Source of the DNA: a virus
Reading direction: 5' to 3' (one strand)
Length of the DNA: 40,811 nt
IMG/VR virus record: IMGVR_UViG_3300027841_000030
Span: 1-40,811 of that record
The stretch's first letter is position 1. Each line of letters begins with the position of its first letter. The position numbers were made by a program, and so were the translations under genes. This document shows, piece by piece, positions 15,498-21,917 of the stretch. Below the pieces are notes generated by a model, which worked only from the letters and a program-made list of their open reading frames with translations, was not told the origin of the DNA and did not search any database.

Positions 15498-16124
15498 TTA
15501 TTCTTCCATTGATGATTTTGCCGCTGCAAGTATCGCATCCCACTGTTCCTGAGTCATACCCTGCTTAAACAATGTTTTTCTTAAATTATCGGCTAAAGCC
15601 TTCTCGTTTATAGCTGCTTTAACAGCTAATTTCTGTAGCTTATATGGGCGTTTATCCTTGAAGAATTCTGTTAGATTGCTAAATATATTAGCAACAACAG
15701 GAGCACCCACTTGTATACCCCAAACAGTGAACATAATGGTTACAATGCTGGAAACATACCACTCAGGCATTGAGCCTAAGTTTTCAAACAATATTTTAGC
15801 GTAGCTTGGAGCTACAACACCTAAAGCAAAAGGACAAAACCAAACGCAGAAAGTGAAATATTTAAAATAACTTCCGGTGCTTTCAACAATAGTTTTATTT
15901 AATTCAAATTGAGCTTTAGCTGCCTCAGATGCATATTGCATTTGCTTATTCTGAACTTCGAGTTGGTAGTCAAGTTTCTTAACTTCCATCTCTTGTTTTT
16001 TCTTGTAGTAGTCGCCAATAAGTCCGGGCAAATTTCCTAACAAGCCAAATAACAAAGTCCAAGGCACAATATTTCCCACAAAGAGAAGGCACTTAAAAAC
16101 AACAAGGAGGGGATATTCTAACAC
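15498..16124 (-). CDS. Holin-like membrane protein (three membrane segments)
   Basis: A 208-residue protein with a hydrophobic amino segment (residues 4-34), a charged helix (YYKKKQEMEVKKLDYQLEVQ), then two further membrane segments at about 87-110 and 124-145. The end is amphipathic (MTQEQWDAILAAAKSSMEE). This matches the 3-TM holin group (GTA holin type). It is the first gene of the late operon. No ATG is available: the frame begins at a GTG at 16124 without a clear ribosome-binding site, so the exact start is uncertain. Confidence 0.65.
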   Translation of the reverse strand: MLEYPLLVVFKCLLFVGNIVPWTLLFGLLGNLPGLIGDYYKKKQEMEVKKLDYQLEVQNKQMQYASEAAKAQFELNKTIVESTGSYFKYFTFCVWFCPFALGVVAPSYAKILFENLGSMPEWYVSSIVTIMFTVWGIQVGAPVVANIFSNLTEFFKDKRPYKLQKLAVKAAINEKALADNLRKTLFKQGMTQEQWDAILAAAKSSMEE

Positions 16125-16168
16125 AAGCGGTTGAGTAATATCTGTTGCTAAGTGCCTATTAATTCAAC

Positions 16169-16186
16169 GGGCAATATTTCTTGCCC
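16169..16186 (-). promoter_or_regulatory. 5' leader hairpin of the late transcript
   Basis: A perfect 6-bp inverted repeat GGGCAA / TTGCCC with a six-base loop. It lies within a few bases of the predicted start of the leftward transcript, so it would cap the late mRNA and could protect its 5' end. Confidence 0.5.
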
Positions 16187-16195
16187 TATATATTA

Positions 16196-16224
16196 ATTAT
16201 ATCATCATACAACATGTATGTCAA
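16196..16224 (-). promoter_or_regulatory. Late-operon sigma-70 promoter, perfect consensus
   Basis: Read leftward, TTGACA (16224-16219) and TATAAT (16201-16196) are separated by exactly 17 bases. Both hexamers are perfect. Transcription should begin near 16189 and run into the holin, terminase and structural genes. No UP element or operator palindrome overlaps it directly, but ACAAT/ATTGT palindromes lie just upstream. Confidence 0.85.
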
Positions 16225-16264
16225 TAGCTAAAAGCTAATTAAATCACAATATGTATTAATATTT

Positions 16265-16285
16265 ACAATATTGTTACAATTGTAA
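16265..16285. promoter_or_regulatory. Paired ACAAT/ATTGT palindromes, candidate operators
   Basis: ACAATATTGT (16265-16274) abuts the 12-bp perfect palindrome TTACAATTGTAA (16274-16285). They lie between the leftward late promoter and the rightward promoter at 16357. The core ACAATTGT recurs twice around the promoter at 19313-19341. This suggests a shared DNA-binding regulator, which I could not identify in the window. Confidence 0.45.
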
Positions 16286-16356
16286 TTTAATATAATACTA
16301 ACAATAATTTACATAGTGTTTCAATGCAACAGAAGCCCCGAAAGCGTATGTTGCTA

Positions 16357-16385
16357 TTGACAACACGTTTTTATTATGCTATTTT
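16357..16385 (+). promoter_or_regulatory. Rightward sigma-70 promoter with extended -10
   Basis: TTGACA (16357-16362), a 17-base spacer, then TATTTT (16380-16385) preceded by TG at -15/-14 (TGC-TATTTT). The transcript would start near 16392, at the edge of the A+T tract, and read through the paired hairpins at 16595-16669. Confidence 0.65.
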
Positions 16386-16594
16386 AGTAATACTAGTACT
16401 AGTACTATAGTACTAAGTACTAAGTAATAATATATATATTATTAAATATATATATATTATTACGTATATAATATATAATATATTATTATAAATATATTAT
16501 ATATTAGTACTAAGTATTAGTAATATTATATTTATTAATAATATAATATTACGTATACAATATATTTTTATTTAAGTAAAAATATATTAATATT
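16386..16594. other. A+T tract with palindromes, candidate replication origin
   Basis: About 209 bases with almost no G or C apart from short AGTACT-type steps. It contains tandem TAGTACTA units (16386-16425), a perfect 11-bp inverted repeat (16521-16531 / 16541-16551), and the direct repeat ATTACGTATA at 16459-16468 and 16548-16557. It sits between divergent transcription units, as expected for an easily melted origin. No gene is visible from 16225 to 17180. Origin function is inference. Confidence 0.45.
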
Positions 16595-16632
16595 ATGTGT
16601 AATACACAAATAAGCTACAGTGTATTACACAT
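16595..16632. repeat. 13-bp inverted repeat with AAATAAGCT loop (hairpin 1)
   Basis: Perfect arms ATGTGTAATACAC and GTGTATTACACAT flank a 12-base loop beginning AAATAAGCT. Each arm is itself nearly palindromic (GTGTAATACAC, GTGTATTACAC) with centres 23 bases apart, so it could also be a pair of operator sites. The loop sequence is repeated in the next hairpin. Confidence 0.6.
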
Positions 16633-16637
16633 GTACA

Positions 16638-16669
16638 ATGCTTCCGGCAAATAAGCTTCCCGGAAGCAT
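16638..16669. repeat. 10-bp inverted repeat with the same loop (hairpin 2)
   Basis: Perfect arms ATGCTTCCGG and CCGGAAGCAT around a 12-base loop CAAATAAGCTTC. The arms are unrelated to hairpin 1, yet CAAATAAGCT is identical in both (16607-16616 and 16648-16657). There is no T-run after it, so it is not a simple terminator. Confidence 0.6.
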
Positions 16670-16765
16670 ATATTACGCCATTTATTATTATTTAATAAAT
16701 GTTGTCCTAGAAATGCTATTATAAATCTTGTTAAAGGCACTAAATTTGCTCTCTACGAGGTTTTT

Positions 16766-16819
16766 ACCCTCTTGCCTATGCAAGGGTAGCTTAAAAGTAT
16801 TTGCGTGTCTTGTACACGC
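16766..16819. repeat. Two small hairpins upstream of the early promoter
   Basis: The first has the stem CTTGC-CTAT-GCAAG (16771-16784), extended by ACC/GGT. The second, at 16803-16819, has the perfect arms GCGTGT and ACACGC around CTTGT. A small palindrome CTTAAATTAAG follows. None is followed by a T-run. The role is unknown: they could be processing or terminator-like elements of transcripts arriving from the left. Confidence 0.4.
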
Positions 16820-16863
16820 CTTAAATTAAGCCTAAATATTTTTAATTTATTTTCATTATTTCC

Positions 16864-16891
16864 TTGCTTTTTTCTGCACATGTGTTATACT
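16864..16891 (+). promoter_or_regulatory. Early promoter for the structured RNA and small genes
   Basis: TTGCTT (16864-16869), a 16-base spacer and TATACT (16886-16891) preceded by TG at the extended -10 position (TGT-TATACT). The predicted start is near 16898, immediately before the first helix of the structured region at 16901. It probably drives the RNA and the genes from 17181 onward. Confidence 0.7.
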
Positions 16892-16900
16892 TGAAAGTAA

Positions 16901-17160
16901 GAGGCTAGGAATAGACCCTCCAGTCTGATAACTAGCCGGATGTGCCATGGCAGATGGCCGAAAATCTGCAAGACAAAGTATTTTCATGAACTCAGTGGTG
17001 GCGCTGAGGTCGAAAGAGCCACAACACACATATTCATCTAGGTTGAAATGCCTAGAAAGACACCAGCCAGGCCTAGACGTCTTTAACAAGACGTGAGCAT
17101 CTAATATGGGCTGGACGGCAAGCCATGAGTCGTTAATGACGGGCTGATCACCCGAATGGC
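16901..17160 (+). ncRNA. Candidate structured RNA of about 260 nt
   Basis: This stretch is visibly richer in G+C than its A+T flanks, begins right after a promoter, and has no credible reading frame. Possible helices, all seen directly: GGCUAG 16903-16908 with 16932-16937, enclosing AGAC/GUCU; GCAGAU 16950 with AUCUGC 16964; CUCAG 16991 with CUGAG 17004; a GAAA-capped stem at 17008-17020; UCUAGG 17037 with CCUAGA 17051; CCAGCC 17063 with GGCUGG 17109, enclosing the 7-bp ACGUCUU/AAGACGU stem at 17077; and a three-way junction closed by GCCAU 17122 / AUGGC 17156. I do not recognise a known riboswitch, ribozyme or tRNA. It ends just before the ribosome-binding site of the next gene, so it could be a leader or a free RNA. 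Confidence 0.6.
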
Positions 17161-17180
17161 ACTTACTAAAGGAGAACAAA

Positions 17181-17525
17181 ATGAAAGATTTTCATAGCTG
17201 GGTGGCTGATATGCAAAACAGTATAGAGGACAAGAGCGAATTTATTAAGCCTAGTAGCCCCGTAAATGAGCAAAAACCGCTCTCTGTGTTACAAAAACGC
17301 CTTCTCCTTGCTGATGCGTTAGTTCCAGAGAACAAAACACTGTTAGATGTTATTAGGTGGGTTGGGATATTTTGCGTATCAGCTGATGGAGACAATATTT
17401 ACCCGGGTGTTTATGATGTGCTAGGCGACGGAAGTGAGTTGCTGGTGGACTATCAACGAGCAAGAACACTAGAAGCACACATAAAAGTTAGGGAAAAAAT
17501 AACACAGTGGGCTAAGAATTCCTAA
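17181..17525 (+). CDS. Early hypothetical protein
   Basis: A 114-residue protein with no recognised family, preceded by AAAGGAGAACAAA. It has an acidic, polar amino third (ending near the SSPVNEQKP segment), a helical middle (LQKRLLLADALVPENKTLLD), a short aromatic stretch VIRWVGIFCVSADGDNIYPG and a basic C-terminus. It is the first gene after the structured RNA and so probably acts early. No function can be proposed. Confidence 0.7.
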   Translation: MKDFHSWVADMQNSIEDKSEFIKPSSPVNEQKPLSVLQKRLLLADALVPENKTLLDVIRWVGIFCVSADGDNIYPGVYDVLGDGSELLVDYQRARTLEAHIKVREKITQWAKNS

Positions 17526-17536
17526 AGGAGACTACA

Positions 17537-17803
17537 ATGGCTAGAATGATGTTTGACGAGAGAGAAAAATATACAGAACATTGGGAAATAGCTATAAATA
17601 ATTCAAATAACACATTTACAATAACACATAATAAAGCCCCTCACATAGATGGATATGACAGAATTCAGATTTTATCCTTAGAGAATAAAATAAATATTAT
17701 TGTACATACACTAAAAAGACTTGACAGCATATTTACACAAGCAGAACAGCTTATTTGCCCTATTATGAGGGGAAAAATAGCCTTAGAATTAGGGAATATT
17801 TAA
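17537..17803 (+). CDS. Early hypothetical protein
   Basis: An 88-residue protein with AAAGGAG at good distance from the ATG. A mixed amino half (EHWEIAINNSNNTFTITHN) looks beta-rich and the second half (IVHTLKRLDSIFTQAEQLI) helical. It lies 11 bases after the previous gene in the same unit. No family recognised. Confidence 0.65.
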   Translation: MARMMFDEREKYTEHWEIAINNSNNTFTITHNKAPHIDGYDRIQILSLENKINIIVHTLKRLDSIFTQAEQLICPIMRGKIALELGNI

Positions 17804-17821
17804 ATAAAATACCTTCTGCTA

Positions 17822-17837
17822 CCGTCATTTGTGACGG
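17822..17837 (+). promoter_or_regulatory. Intercistronic hairpin
   Basis: Perfect 6-bp arms CCGTCA / TGACGG around TTTG in the 62-base gap between two early genes. No T-run follows. A message-processing or stability element is the likeliest role. Confidence 0.4.
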
Positions 17838-17865
17838 CACCAAAATTATAGCATTGGAGAAAAAT

Positions 17866-18138
17866 ATGAATAAGGAACAAAAAGAGAAAATAAGAGACTT
17901 AGCTATTAAGACAATAAAGCTTTGTCATGGCTTTGAAGACGAAATGTTTATACAAGACATTACAGAAATATATGAAGGATTTATTATAGGAATTAACAAT
18001 AACTGGGAAGAATATTTAACAAGAGAAACAAATGACGCTCTAATTGCTGACAGAACTAGTTGCCCTACGTGTGGAACACAAGTGTTTATAGAACGTACAA
18101 GAACAACAATATACACAGATGTTATGGATGATAATTAA
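17866..18138 (+). CDS. Early hypothetical protein with a CPTC motif
   Basis: A 90-residue protein. The frame is open from 17755, but the ATG at 17866 is chosen because it has GGAG at eight bases and does not overlap the previous gene. Residues 1-60 are helical and acidic (GFEDEMFIQDITEIYEGF). The end carries SCPTCGTQVFIERTRT, a single Cys-x-x-Cys that could be half of a zinc site. No family recognised. Confidence 0.65.
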   Translation: MNKEQKEKIRDLAIKTIKLCHGFEDEMFIQDITEIYEGFIIGINNNWEEYLTRETNDALIADRTSCPTCGTQVFIERTRTTIYTDVMDDN

Positions 18139-18157
18139 CAATACAATACAATATGAT

Positions 18158-18206
18158 GCGGGGATTCTTAAGCGTAAGAGAATAATATAGCTATCCCCGC
18201 GGCTTT
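18158..18206 (+). terminator. Two-part hairpin, probable terminator of the first early unit
   Basis: Outer arms GCGGGGAT (18158-18165) and ATCCCCGC (18193-18200) are perfect. Inside is a small stem TCTTA-AGCG-TAAGA, and GGCTTTTA follows. The short T-run makes it a moderate terminator. The nested inner stem is unusual and could also mark a small RNA end. Confidence 0.5.
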
Positions 18207-18234
18207 TACATAACCCATTACATATCAGATAGTT

Positions 18235-18408
18235 ATGAAACATATATATGCAATAATATTTCTTATATGTTACAATGTGGCTATAGAAATTAGTAGGTTT
18301 GACCAACCAGAAAATTTCTACATAAAAGAAATAAAAGTGAAGAAAATAGAAGGCTACTCTTATTTAAGGAGCTTAAACAAATGTATTCATTTAAGAAGTG
18401 GTGGCTAA
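18235..18408 (+). CDS. Possible small membrane peptide (doubtful)
   Basis: A 57-residue frame beginning MKHIYAIIFLICYNVAIEIS, which looks like a signal or membrane segment, then a basic part. It has no clear ribosome-binding site and overlaps the well-supported gene at 18381 by 28 bases in another frame. It is listed because the hydrophobic start is notable. It may well not be translated. Confidence 0.25.
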   Translation: MKHIYAIIFLICYNVAIEISRFDQPENFYIKEIKVKKIEGYSYLRSLNKCIHLRSGG

Positions 18409-18644
18409 ATAAGAATGATTATCAATTAATTAAAGGCTGGTGGGTTAATTACACACAGCTTTTGGCTGTTCAAGACAAGACAATAAAGACTAGCTTTCTT
18501 AAATTCCATTACAAAAAGCTTAATGTAACACCCTTCGGGAGTTGGAAATTCATAGCAACACATAAATTAAACAATGATGTATTAGACACACTACGCTGGG
18601 AATTTTTACAACCAAAACTTATAGAAAGGAAAACCAATGGATGA
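18381..18644 (+). CDS. Early hypothetical protein next to the antitoxin-like gene
   Basis: An 87-residue basic, Trp-rich protein (KKWWLNKND, KGWWVNY, FGSWKFIATHK, LRWEFLQPK) with TAAGGAG before its ATG. It overlaps the following antitoxin-like gene by eight bases, so the two are coupled. It shows no RES-domain residues, so it is not an obvious toxin partner. No family recognised. Confidence 0.65.
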   Translation: MYSFKKWWLNKNDYQLIKGWWVNYTQLLAVQDKTIKTSFLKFHYKKLNVTPFGSWKFIATHKLNNDVLDTLRWEFLQPKLIERKTNG

Positions 18645-18819
18645 ATTCATAAATGGTAGTGAACAAATATGTGCTCTATTGTACAATAAATTTGGGGGAA
18701 TTAAGCTGTTAGCCTACACATGGCTCTACACTAATAACCCTCAGCTTAATAACTATCCCCCTATAGCTTTAATACGTCTCGGAAAATTAGAGCACGTAAA
18801 GGCTCTTCTTTCCTCATAA
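18637..18819 (+). CDS. Stand-alone MbcA/ParS/Xre toxin-binding domain (antitoxin mimic)
   Basis: A 60-residue protein that is almost exactly the DUF2384 antitoxin toxin-binding domain. It reads CALLYNKFGG, then LLAYTWLYTNNPQLNNYPPI and GKLEHVKALLSS, matching the family's F-G ... W-L ... N-P-x-L ... P-x-x-L ... G-x-x-x-x-V-x-x-L-L pattern. Family antitoxins normally carry an amino-terminal helix-turn-helix and pair with RES-domain NAD-degrading toxins. Here the DNA-binding part and the toxin are both absent. It starts within the end of the previous gene, with GAAAGGA as ribosome-binding site. The likely role, neutralising a host toxin early in infection, is inference. Confidence 0.7.
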   Translation: MDEFINGSEQICALLYNKFGGIKLLAYTWLYTNNPQLNNYPPIALIRLGKLEHVKALLSS

Positions 18820-18832
18820 TTCCTTAGCGTGG

Positions 18833-18916
18833 CGTATTGAAGACGCAGTCAAAATAGCCTAAGCTTCGTATTCCATGGCTTATAATAGCCTGGAATTCTC
18901 TTAATATTTCCTTAAG
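18833..18916. repeat. Hairpins after the antitoxin-like gene
   Basis: GCGT/ACGC (18833-18847) is followed by a larger stem: ATTCCA-T-GGCT (18870-18880), loop TATAAT, AGCC-TGGAAT (18887-18896). Ten pairs form with one bulge. Just after it CTTAA/TTAAG precedes a T-rich stretch CTTTCTTTTATT, which may end the transcript weakly. The gap from 18820 to 19372 contains no convincing gene. Confidence 0.4.
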
Positions 18917-18996
18917 CTTTCTTTTATTCCTTTGCCGTGAGGCTGTCGAGTCAACGCCCCTCCTCTACGCTTTGGGGGAGCTGCCCCCTATACATT

Positions 18997-19076
18997 ATTG
19001 GCACATTATATGCATTAGCATAATGTATGCCAATGTGTGTTGGCACGTGTCTTGCATTAGCAAGCTCTATGCCAAC
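18997..19076. repeat. Tandem pair of matched 38-nt hairpins
   Basis: Unit 1 (18997-19034) and unit 2 (19039-19076) have the same plan: a 7-bp outer stem (ATTGGCA/TGCCAAT and GTTGGCA/TGCCAAC), an internal loop, a 5-bp inner stem (TATGC/GCATA and CTTGC/GCAAG) and the same ATTA loop. Both are 38 bases and the period is 42. The outer first pair changes A-T to G-C, and the inner stems change on both sides, keeping the pairing. The fold seems conserved rather than the letters. A GGGGG/CCCCC hairpin lies just upstream (18974-18988). Confidence 0.65.
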
Positions 19077-19156
19077 TATATACGAACGGGAGAGAGGACT
19101 GGCCATGTGCAGCTCACACTCCTAGTGTTCCCCGCTTACATAGCCTATTAGTATAT

Positions 19157-19183
19157 GCACAAGCTACACTGGTACGCTTGTGC
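19157..19183. repeat. 8-bp inverted repeat with inner stem
   Basis: GCACAAGC (19157-19164) and GCTTGTGC (19176-19183) are perfect. Inside, TAC/GTA can extend the stem around ACTG. Another 9-bp repeat AACATACAT / ATGTATGTT follows (19187-19195, 19212-19220). It may be an operator or an RNA structure; there is no T-run. Confidence 0.4.
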
Positions 19184-19301
19184 GTAAACATACATACATT
19201 ATTTTCAATACATGTATGTTATTGCATTATTATGTATTTATTATTTCTTTTCTTCTATTCTTTTCTCTTCCTTATTTAATACATTCTTTACACTATTCTT
19301 A

Positions 19302-19341
19302 CACAATTGTTCTTGCTTACGCCCACAATTGTTCCTATAAT
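19302..19341 (+). promoter_or_regulatory. Promoter with two operator-like repeats
   Basis: TTGCTT (19313-19318), a 17-base spacer and TATAAT (19336-19341). Two copies of CACAATTGTTC (19302-19312 and 19324-19334) lie 22 bases apart, one just upstream of the -35 and one inside the spacer. Their ACAATTGT core is a palindrome, so a dimeric repressor could bind both and block the polymerase. It drives the three small genes from 19373. Confidence 0.65.
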
Positions 19342-19372
19342 ATAATTAAGAGAAGAATAAAGGAGAACACAA

Positions 19373-19552
19373 ATGAACATCAATAACACAACATATATTG
19401 TACATAACAACAATAATAGTGTTAAAAAAGAAACAAACAATAGAGAAGAAGCTAAGAAAATAGCTGTTCAACTAACCTTAGTGTTCGGCGAATTCTTCGC
19501 TATTGATGTAGATGTTAAGAAAGACTTATGGGCTTTAAACTATAACAGATAG
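19373..19552 (+). CDS. Small early protein
   Basis: A 59-residue Asn-rich protein (MNINNTTYIVHNNNNSVKKE) preceded by AAAGGAGAACACAA. Its second half is helical with LVFGEFFAIDVDV. It is the first gene after the operator-flanked promoter. No family recognised. Confidence 0.6.
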   Translation: MNINNTTYIVHNNNNSVKKETNNREEAKKIAVQLTLVFGEFFAIDVDVKKDLWALNYNR

Positions 19553-19562
19553 GAGAAACACA

Positions 19563-19703
19563 ATGAACGCATTATATACATTAGAAGATATTAAGACATT
19601 ATTTAAGATGTCAGGCGTAGCGGAGCTACATGTATACATCAGAGAGCACTTTGTATGTGCCTATGATGGTGAGCTTAACTTCTTAGGCTATAGGAGAATC
19701 TAG
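19563..19703 (+). CDS. Small early protein
   Basis: A 46-residue protein (MNALYTLEDIKTLFKMSGV, ending LNFLGYRRI) whose AGGAG overlaps the end of the previous gene. Good ribosome-binding site and tight spacing support it. No family recognised. Confidence 0.6.
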   Translation: MNALYTLEDIKTLFKMSGVAELHVYIREHFVCAYDGELNFLGYRRI

Positions 19704-19705
19704 AA

Positions 19706-19867
19706 ATGTATGAAGAATTATATGAACCAGAATATGAGGAAAGTCAAGACGAGCTTAGAGAAAGAATAAGACAGCTCGAGGAAGACTTAGAATGTTGTGA
19801 TGAATACATAGCTGAGCTAGAAGAGAAGCTTACAGCATTAGAGAGAATAACAGCATATTGGAGTTAA
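19706..19867 (+). CDS. Small acidic coiled-coil protein
   Basis: A 53-residue, strongly acidic protein. The start is Tyr/Glu-rich and residues 16-48 form a leucine-heptad coiled coil (RERIRQLEEDLECC, then AELEEKLTALER). It begins two bases after the previous stop, with AGGAG ten bases upstream. Very acidic small early proteins sometimes mimic DNA or bind host regulators; here this is only a possibility. Confidence 0.6.
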   Translation: MYEELYEPEYEESQDELRERIRQLEEDLECCDEYIAELEEKLTALERITAYWS

Positions 19868-19872
19868 TCCCC

Positions 19873-19932
19873 TATAAGGAGTAATTTGTAATTATCCCTT
19901 ATAATGCATAAAGCCCCTTAATTGGGGCTTTT
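19873..19932 (+). terminator. Tandem hairpins with terminator between converging units
   Basis: First is an AT-rich hairpin with TATAAGG (19873-19879) paired to CCTTATA (19897-19903) and a further inner stem TAATT/AATTA. Then comes a clear intrinsic terminator: AAAGCCCC (19910-19917), TTAATT loop, GGGGCTTTT (19924-19932). It ends the rightward early unit. Read leftward its U-run is weak. Confidence 0.75.
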
Positions 19933-19940
19933 CATTGTCT

Positions 19941-20141
19941 TTATTTCTTAGACCCAAACTCGTAAGTTAGCCAGTAGTTAAGCGGAAGTGTTGCTATTGT
20001 ATACACACTTCCTAGCAAGAATTGTCTTAGTGTTGGGATTTCATTCTGTATGATGTATATTGTAAAGAAGAACCCTGTTGCCCACCATAGCTTGCTTATT
20101 ATCATAAATGATAGTTTTGGATAGCGTTTAATTATGCTCAT
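19941..20141 (-). CDS. Small two-segment membrane protein
   Basis: A 66-residue protein with two membrane segments (about LSFMIISKLWWATGFFFTI and FLLGSVYTIATLPLNYWL). The ATG at 20141 is chosen over a GTG four codons upstream because AAGGTG lies seven bases before it. It is the last gene of the long leftward run. Candidates are superinfection exclusion or a holin-type accessory, without direct evidence. Confidence 0.6.
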   Translation of the reverse strand: MSIIKRYPKLSFMIISKLWWATGFFFTIYIIQNEIPTLRQFLLGSVYTIATLPLNYWLTYEFGSKK

Positions 20142-20142
20142 A

Positions 20143-20430
20143 TTAATATTCACCTTCTAGTATATCACGTATGGTATCAATTACATCTTCTGCAATTTCC
20201 CTTCTGTGTTTCTCTGCCTCATATTCCAAAATGGCTTCAGCTAGCCTCTCTTCCTTCCTCTCTGGAGTTTGTATGTACTTACTATCAAGCTCTTCCTTAA
20301 TCACCTTGTAGTAGTGCTCAAATACACTCTCAATAAACCCCTCTCTCATTGCTCTTTCAGGGTCTAGTGCGTAATGTTTGGCGTATTTTTTAGCAAAAGC
20401 CTGCGCTGTTTCTCTAACTAAATCATTCAT
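20143..20430 (-). CDS. Hypothetical helical protein
   Basis: A 95-residue, charged, all-helical protein (ETAQAFAKKYAKHYALDPE, then EEELDSKY-type segments and an acidic end). GGGGA precedes the ATG. It ends one base before the next start. No family recognised. Confidence 0.65.
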   Translation of the reverse strand: MNDLVRETAQAFAKKYAKHYALDPERAMREGFIESVFEHYYKVIKEELDSKYIQTPERKEERLAEAILEYEAEKHRREIAEDVIDTIRDILEGEY

Positions 20431-20472
20431 TTCAATTCCCCATTCTAAAAAGTATCATGTGTTCAGCACATT

Positions 20473-20646
20473 TTAGCTTTTATACATCACCTCTATTATA
20501 TTTACATCGTCAAACTTATATTTATCATTGATGAGGTCAACTAATTCCGCTAACGTTGCGGTATAATGTACTACATGTTCGCCTCTATTAGATATCTGTT
20601 TTGTATTAAGATCCATAAAATATATCTTTAATATTGCTGTAATCAT
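20473..20646 (-). CDS. Small hypothetical protein
   Basis: A 57-residue protein (MITAILKIYFMDLNTKQISN, then EHVVHYTATLAELVDLINDK) with GGGGATAAGAA before the ATG at 20646. It looks like a single small alpha/beta fold. No family recognised. Confidence 0.6.
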   Translation of the reverse strand: MITAILKIYFMDLNTKQISNRGEHVVHYTATLAELVDLINDKYKFDDVNIIEVMYKS

Positions 20647-20827
20647 TTCTTATCCCCTAAATACACTTTTTGGAAACACTCATCGCGACTAATGCAATAG
20701 GATGCCTAGCGAAGGCTTTTACTAGCTAGATATTACACCAACCTAGTGGCACTTTCACCTATTAAATCCACGAGTTCTACTACTAATAGCAGCTATAGAC
20801 AGACTACGTTGTCAGCGTAACGGCTAA
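20647..20827. other. 181-base gap without a gene
   Basis: No start codon with a ribosome-binding site and frame is visible on either strand. Short stems occur: GCCT/AGGC around position 20703, a CTAG-bounded loop near 20730-20756, and ACGGCT/AGCCGT at 20820-20841 overlapping the next gene's end. The GC content is higher than in most gaps here, so a small structured RNA is possible, but I see no convincing overall fold and no tRNA. Confidence 0.35.
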
Positions 20828-21040
20828 TTAACCTAAGCCGTCAATAGGATCCTGTCCCCTCTTATAATGTGTTGCAACAAGCGTCACTTCGTACTCTTTG
20901 ATATAAAAAGTTTCATAAGGCTCTGCTGTTTTTACATAACAATCAACTATTTTCCACGCGTCAAATAGGCTACTAGCCTTTTTCTTAAAAACGCCACTTA
21001 TGGGGAAATTAGCCATCATTACATGATATTCTCTTGTCAT
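20828..21040 (-). CDS. Hypothetical protein
   Basis: A 70-residue protein (MTREYHVMMANFPISGVFKK, ending KRGQDPIDGLG). Its ATG overlaps the stop of the preceding 64-residue gene by four bases. It is mixed alpha/beta. No family recognised. Confidence 0.6.
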   Translation of the reverse strand: MTREYHVMMANFPISGVFKKKASSLFDAWKIVDCYVKTAEPYETFYIKEYEVTLVATHYKRGQDPIDGLG

Positions 21041-21231
21041 AGATCATCCCCCATATATATTTCCCACTCTCTGTATTCGTAGTGCGCAACTATCTGTTCC
21101 TGTACCCAGTTAGTAAATTCTTCTTTTAGACTAGGGTCAAATCCATGTCGTAAAGCTACCTCGACAATATGTAAGTAACTAAGAGTATCTACTCCCTCGT
21201 ATTCTAGATTATCAGTACTTAGCTTACTCAT
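21037..21231 (-). CDS. Hypothetical acidic protein
   Basis: A 64-residue protein (MSKLSTDNLEYEGVDTLSYL, then FTNWVQEQIVAHYEYREW) with GAGGAGAAATAA before the ATG. Acidic and helical. An extended -10 promoter lies about 25 bases upstream. No family recognised. Confidence 0.65.
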   Translation of the reverse strand: MSKLSTDNLEYEGVDTLSYLHIVEVALRHGFDPSLKEEFTNWVQEQIVAHYEYREWEIYMGDDL

Positions 21232-21254
21232 TTATTTCTCCTCATATCACTATT

Positions 21255-21263
21255 AGTATAGCA
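21255..21263 (-). promoter_or_regulatory. Possible extended -10 promoter
   Basis: Leftward TGC-TATACT lies about 25 bases before the start at 21231. The hexamer 17 bases upstream (CTACAC) is a poor -35, so activity depends on the extended -10 or on the phage sigma factor. It would separate phoH from the small genes after it. Confidence 0.4.
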
Positions 21264-21266
21264 CAA

Positions 21267-21917
21267 TTATAAAGATTGTGTAGCCCAATTACTAAGTCTA
21301 CTGCGCACACCTTCAGGGAGTTTAATGTATTTAATAAATTCTGCTCCACTAGCCTCTGATGCAGCGCACAATACAGACAATGCATTGTCAGCTTTATTAA
21401 GCTTTGTATTATCAATTTGATCTGTGTCTCCTAGGCATATAACCTTTGTTCCTTCCCCGGCTCTTGTTAACAACACTTTTAATTGTTGTGTTGTAATATT
21501 CTGCACTTCATCAATAATAACTATTCTATTCTGGAAACTGCGTCCACGCATAAATTCTATGGCTCTAATCCTCACTTTACTCTCAATAACCACTTTAGTC
21601 ATGTCTGAATTGCCGTATAAAGCCTCAATATTGTCATATAAGCCCCCGCACCAACTTTTCATCTTATCCTCTTCTGTTCCGGGTAAAAACCCCATCCCAG
21701 AATTACCTACAGCTACAGGTGCTCTTGTAAATACAACCTCTGTATACATATGTAAGTCAAATATTTGATAGAGGGCTGTTGCAATAGCTAGGAATGTTTT
21801 ACCACTCCCGGCGCACCCATCCATCACCACTAAATCTATTTCTGCGTCCAATAGGGCTTTTATAGCTTCTTTCTGTTGCGGGTTTTTAGCTTTAATATCA
21901 AAGGATTTTTTAGCCAT
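21267..21917 (-). CDS. phoH: PhoH-like ATPase
   Basis: A 216-residue P-loop protein. It has KNPQQKEAIKALLDAEIDLV at the start, Walker A GCAGSGKT near 35, the PhoH phrase TRAPVAVGNSGMGFLPGTEE near 85, Walker B IVIIDEVQNIT near 135 and LGDTDQID near 163. PhoH proteins are common in phages and are thought to be RNA-helicase-like ATPases; the role in infection is not settled. Length is normal for phage PhoH. Confidence 0.9.
   Translation of the reverse strand: MAKKSFDIKAKNPQQKEAIKALLDAEIDLVVMDGCAGSGKTFLAIATALYQIFDLHMYTEVVFTRAPVAVGNSGMGFLPGTEEDKMKSWCGGLYDNIEALYGNSDMTKVVIESKVRIRAIEFMRGRSFQNRIVIIDEVQNITTQQLKVLLTRAGEGTKVICLGDTDQIDNTKLNKADNALSVLCAASEASGAEFIKYIKLPEGVRSRLSNWATQSL

Follow-up and report, generated by a model that had tools for sequence, protein, structure and literature searches.

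Phages are usually described as using host sigma70-type transcription or as bringing polymerases and sigma factors of their own, and cyanophage promoters answer host nutrient regulators. Bacterial sigma54 (RpoN) promoters carry -24/-12 elements with a core and an extended consensus, in which a GG and a GC are separated by ten nucleotides (GG-N10-GC), with T-rich sequence before the -12 GC and W after it. In Salmonella, the pattern TGGCAYR-N5-TGC fits 21 of the 29 intergenic sigma54 ChIP sites tabulated in PMC3844500 (our own count). Bidirectional sigma70 promoters (Warman/Grainger; PMC10268837, PMC12825309) are symmetric, so that one polymerase can bind in two orientations; their start sites lie 18 bp apart, with a bias to divergent genes (PMC10268837). 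Finally, the phosphate-stress response of a Synechococcus virus (PMC10976474) is a case of a lytic phage with sites for a host stress-regulation system.

Here, we describe paired sigma54-type sites that recur in phages. They share all of the above sequence features with sigma54 promoters, but occur as facing pairs ~4 bp apart and in arrays, with genes far away, on phage contigs that lack sigma54 and, with rare exceptions, an activator gene. With bidirectional sigma70 promoters they have in common their symmetry and a preference for positions between divergent genes, and they would, by prediction, likewise seat one polymerase in two orientations with starts ~18–19 bp apart; unlike these promoters, they consist of sigma54 elements, are symmetric over the whole 36 bp instead of at the -10 element, and have predicted transcripts. 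Relative to the cyanophage promoters, the regulator and the hosts differ, and symmetric arrays are not known from that system. A text search of open-access papers did not find paired phage sigma54 sites described.

The window (the whole stretch of DNA analyzed, 40,811 bases) is the entire IMG/VR virus record IMGVR_UViG_3300027841_000030. It belongs to a tailed phage with a terminase, a DUF4055 portal and a P22-like coat protein, which also has a family A DNA polymerase, a DnaB-type helicase and PhoH. A preliminary description had reported two tandem 38-nt inverted repeats with a 42-nt period, and both are present (Table 1). They lie in a control region of ~550 nt between small plus-strand genes, and thus in a codirectional, not a divergent, gap. 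Possibly, this region is an origin or a structured leader. Further inverted repeats in it are ATTCCATGGCTTATAATAGCCTGGAAT near 18869, GGGGGAGCTGCCCCC near 18974 and a pair of arms at 19187-19200/19207-19220. Matches to sigma70-like promoters are fewer in the control region than in its shuffles, which makes the match over unit 1 a weak one. No tRNA or tmRNA was found in the window.

Elsewhere in the window, a very AT-rich gap (16125-17180, GC down to 20%) contains a leftward, perfect TTGACA-N17-TATAAT at 16224-16196, which probably drives the structural gene operon. The product of the minus-strand gene at 24097-24669 (190 aa) contains a Sigma-70 region 2 domain and is a possible phage-encoded sigma70-family sigma factor. 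At 18159-18204, a gap between small genes holds a long hairpin, GCGGGGAT...ATCCCCGC, the inner part of which resembles 17671-17697 (repeat D2).

Table 1. Features of the control region and its surroundings (window coordinates).
Feature	Position	Strand	Remark
Unit 1, palindromic pair of sigma54-type half-sites	18997..19034		4-bp centre ATTA
Unit 2, palindromic pair of sigma54-type half-sites	19039..19076		4-bp centre ATTA
Half-site TTGGCACATTATATGC, sigma54 -24/-12	18998..19013	+	exact match to TTGGCAYRNNNNWTGC
Half-site TTGGCATACATTATGC, sigma54 -24/-12	19018..19033	-	exact match to TTGGCAYRNNNNWTGC
Half-site TTGGCACGTGTCTTGC, sigma54 -24/-12	19040..19055	+	exact match to TTGGCAYRNNNNWTGC
Half-site TTGGCATAGAGCTTGC, sigma54 -24/-12	19060..19075	-	exact match to TTGGCAYRNNNNWTGC
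Non-coding control region with both units	18820..19372		many inverted repeats; no convincing ORF
First small gene 3' of the units	19373..19552	+	~300 nt from unit 2; good ribosome-binding site
Weak sigma70-like TTGCTT-N17-TATAAT of gene 19373..19552	19313-19341	+	read by eye
Sigma70-like TTGGCA-N17-TATAAT over unit 1	19005..19033	-	11/12 match; weak, possibly chance

The two units read A TTGGCA CATTA TATGC ATTA GCATA ATGTA TGCCAA T and G TTGGCA CGTGT CTTGC ATTA GCAAG CTCTA TGCCAA C, with 75% identity across their 36-nt core. All four arms, on both strands, have the form TTGGCAYR-N4-WTGC with 10 nt from GG to GC, and the extended consensus TGGCAYR-N5-TGCW fits each of them (4/4). Each unit is therefore composed of two facing -24/-12 elements with 4 bp between them. 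Within the 40.8 kb there are four copies of the 16-mer TTGGCAYRNNNNWTGC, all of them unit arms and all within 78 bp, against 0.12 expected in the window; none of 100 shuffles of the window reached this count. The 5x5 internal loop of the supposed hairpin corresponds to the degenerate promoter spacer, and its ATTA "loop" to the 4 bp that separate the facing -12 elements.

The preliminary description had interpreted the units as hairpins under selection for structure, and several of its observations hold. Three of the 12 pairs differ between the units and still pair (outer A-T/G-C, inner T-A/C-G, inner A-T/T-A), and these compensatory changes also keep both sigma54 half-sites intact. On folding, a 93-nt stretch with the unit pair reaches -32.5 kcal/mol vs. 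-23.4 ± 2.9 for shuffles (z -3.1, 0/200 as good), a result less telling than the fourfold 16-mer, and the entire non-coding region (18820-19373) also folds far better than its shuffles (z -5.5). These folds, together with a weak covariation of the outer flank pair, are what speaks for structured RNA or DNA hairpins (a processing signal, cruciform, packaging or origin element). The covariation anticipated across other phages did not appear: in the 152 distinct units among the matches listed, spacer positions pair at or below shuffled expectation. After de-duplication to 97 units, the six spacer positions pair at z -2.9 to +0.5; mild excesses over expectation are confined to two pairs, the outermost flank pair (z 3.5) and that of the W positions (z 2.6). 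An early anti-covariation signal weakened after strict clustering (1.71 vs. 1.94 ± 0.18 pairs), and for the spacer we claim that covariation is absent and nothing beyond that. Outward, 58 of the 95 units have no further pair to extend the stem, and no Rfam family matches at the gathering threshold anywhere in the window. An RNA hairpin or ncRNA was discarded on these three grounds, and hairpins of either kind are very improbable, as two facing promoters already account for the complementary arms. Since the spacer does not covary and the stems do not extend, we attribute the symmetry to two facing protein sites. What is conserved is a DNA motif (the sigma54 consensus on each strand) and not pairing.

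The same motif recurs far beyond this phage. A scan of IMG/VR viral contigs for the palindrome TTGGCA-N6-WTGC-N(0-14)-GCAW-N6-TGCCAA matched at least 120 stretches, while bacterial and archaeal genomes totaling 257 Gb gave 88 stretches with the identical pattern; the paired sites are thus concentrated in phages. Among the viral matches listed, 81 of 153 distinct units have a gap of 4 and 143 a gap of 3-7, whereas bacterial and archaeal gaps are flat from 0 to 14, as by chance. Several viral contigs carry tandem arrays, with periods of 42, 54-55 or 26-28 bp. The bases that the pattern leaves free also follow the extended consensus, with Y after TTGGCA in 282/286 half-sites and then R in 279/286 (~98%). 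As the two units exceed chance and units of the same plan recur in many phages, they are under selection; this part of the earlier claim stands, while pairing itself is not what is selected.

Half-sites without a partner were not selected by the palindrome scan, and are informative for that reason. The half-site TTGGCAYRNNNNTTGC is present in 48 of the 49 viral records (a count that includes palindrome arms), with none for a reversed-motif control. With the palindromes removed, 205 perfect solo sites lie within 2.5 kb of them, where shuffled motifs predict 0.3, and 92% of solo sites have A or T after TGC. Because such unselected sites abound in palindrome-carrying records, the recurrence of sigma54 half-sites is not an ASCERTAINMENT effect. 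Among 20 records of named phages, including phages of sigma54-bearing genera, no arrays were found (at most three scattered sites).

Among named phages, the window phage has no close DNA relatives; terminase and PhoH led to viral-contig relatives, with proteins 52-75% identical. None of the 17 viral contigs fetched by homology (~237 kb) has a half-site. One close relative, L327, spans the homologous interval and lacks the units altogether, contrary to the expectation that relatives would keep them; another, L323, ends at a contig edge near the homologous place. Unrelated phages, in contrast, have units with up to 90% identity over 42 nt. This highest identity is that of unit 2 to units in L077/L083, with which nothing else from the searched stretch (16000-21500) matches. 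Because L327 has no half-site and unit 2 alone resembles L077/L083, the element of the window seems to have been gained and lost, or to have evolved independently, rather than been inherited with the genome backbone. In a group of seven viral contigs (L013, L026, L064, L067, L094, L135 and L138), an array of ~135 bp can be aligned; in the most diverged member it is nearly unchanged and its flanks have drifted. By eye, the product of a small gene of L327 (14300-14578) resembles the C-terminal DNA-binding domain of DnaA.

A domain search found Sigma54_DBD in none of the 49 viral records and a sigma54 activator domain over the cut-off in one. A phage-encoded sigma54 or activator was thereby rejected as the reader of the sites, and a host factor is the most likely one. 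Viral contigs of very different size (16 kb to 446 kb), from many unrelated families, share this 16-mer. This speaks for a host factor that is conserved, with sigma54 as the obvious candidate, and we consider it highly probable that the units bind sigma54. Origin iterons, or a phage-specific initiator, were judged unlikely as the same 16-mer serves unrelated phages. N4-type hairpin promoters and mobile-element ends were considered as further candidates. A more general alternative is that a different dimeric protein (a phage repressor, a replication initiator or an unknown host factor) binds sites that merely resemble those of sigma54. It would suit the facing layout, as pairs with a gap of 3-7 bp, peaking at 4, are favored over other half-site pairings, and we found no other described system with sigma54 sites so arranged. 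This protein is nevertheless an unlikely reader, given how many solo half-sites have the full sigma54 consensus and that the range of contig sizes and families points to a conserved host factor.

One bacterial assembly carries such sites in quantity. In a Chitinophagales MAG, which contains rpoN, a single contig of 383 kb, L266/L235 (JAIXLO010000160.1), accounts for 36 of the 40 sites, and the remaining four are in the rest of the 3.1-Mb assembly. As so many sites share this single contig, it probably represents a jumbo phage. Its sites are nearly all on one strand, several of them 60-100 nt upstream of small genes. After several of the sites on this contig, the same GGATCGCATCTTAGTAA-like element recurs. 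In another MAG, G050, no rpoN was shown.

Turning to genes (called in the metagenomic contigs with a custom caller), the sites lie in non-coding gaps, mostly divergent ones. Of gaps of at least 300 nt, 81% of divergent, 33% of convergent and 29% of codirectional gaps have a site, in loci that were chosen by their palindromes, so that these are not base rates. For pairs, 127 are in divergent and 7 in convergent gaps. This placement, with a predicted start spacing of ~19 bp close to the 18 bp of sigma70 bidirectional promoters, leads us to favor, by a modest degree of confidence, units to which the host's sigma54 RNA polymerase binds symmetrically, in both directions, and which support productive divergent transcription. 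Other observations speak against a promoter: pairs in divergent gaps have a median distance of 425 nt to the next gene, solo sites in codirectional gaps have no orientation bias (47 vs. 49), and downstream of paired sites there is neither an excess of ribosome-binding-site/ATG signals nor an enrichment of same-strand starts. The codirectional gap of the window units, the loss of the element in L327 and the array-free named phages count against it as well. Short terminated transcripts were dismissed, as downstream of the sites same-strand terminators are close to random frequency (0.037 vs. 0.025 per site). A further point against a promoter is that a search around the clusters revealed no common motif to which an activator could bind; dyad analysis gave G-runs only, which are probably terminator stems and were rejected as a shared activator site.

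Some arrangements around individual sites are worth recording. In L126 and L203, solo sigma54 sites have one or two inverted repeats of a CTGCCATTTTGGCAG-like kind after them, at a distance of no more than ~20-25 nt. Three separate gaps of L159 contain repeats spaced ~50-58 nt apart; every repeat combines a single sigma54 site with a GTAAAGAA-like stretch upstream of it, and most are antisense to the genes. An anti-restriction protein (phrog_7245) is encoded at 7689-8630 of L014, a virus contig of 223 kb, in the midst of its sigma54 sites.

The main rival reading is a sponge: the very many sites on replicating genomes might be decoys that trap Esigma54, or free sigma54, in closed complexes without activity and thereby shut down the sigma54 program of the host. 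We regard this as a tentative possibility, one that accounts for the near-perfect consensus and the arrays: the 205 perfect sites compare with ~45 non-ascertained sites whose one mismatch falls in the core, outside the tolerated first T and W. Viral half-sites are also enriched for T directly upstream of the -12 GC, and sigma54 binds sites with that feature without core polymerase (PMC3844500). In addition, sites occur in arrays, often antisense to genes and far from their starts, and the activator is not phage-encoded, one of the 49 records excepted. A sponge, however, needs neither a divergent-gap bias, which is strong, nor a facing arrangement with exactly 4 bp between the sites; closed complexes form reversibly (PMC3844500), and the window has only four half-sites. 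Sponge and promoter are not mutually exclusive. Conceivably, the arrays could serve the infecting phage as a sponge or switch for host Esigma54, capturing it without a dedicated phage protein, and such capture might, at similarly low odds, shut off or hijack host nitrogen, envelope-stress and RNA-repair programs.

Under the favored reading of a bidirectional promoter, two perfect -24/-12 elements 4 bp apart would seat one polymerase in either orientation. Starts 12 nt past each GC would then give two diverging transcripts with origins ~19 bp apart. As the window phage encodes neither sigma54 nor an enhancer-binding activator, we infer that the host would supply both, which would tie transcription of the phage control region to whatever activates the host's sigma54 program.

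If true, many uncultured phages would depend on, or target, the activator-gated polymerase of their hosts. The paired sites would provide a sequence handle to predict which phages use host sigma54, and they pose one simple question: promoter or sponge. Their recurrence suggests that many unstudied viruses may plug into, or soak up, the stress-response transcription machinery of the host.
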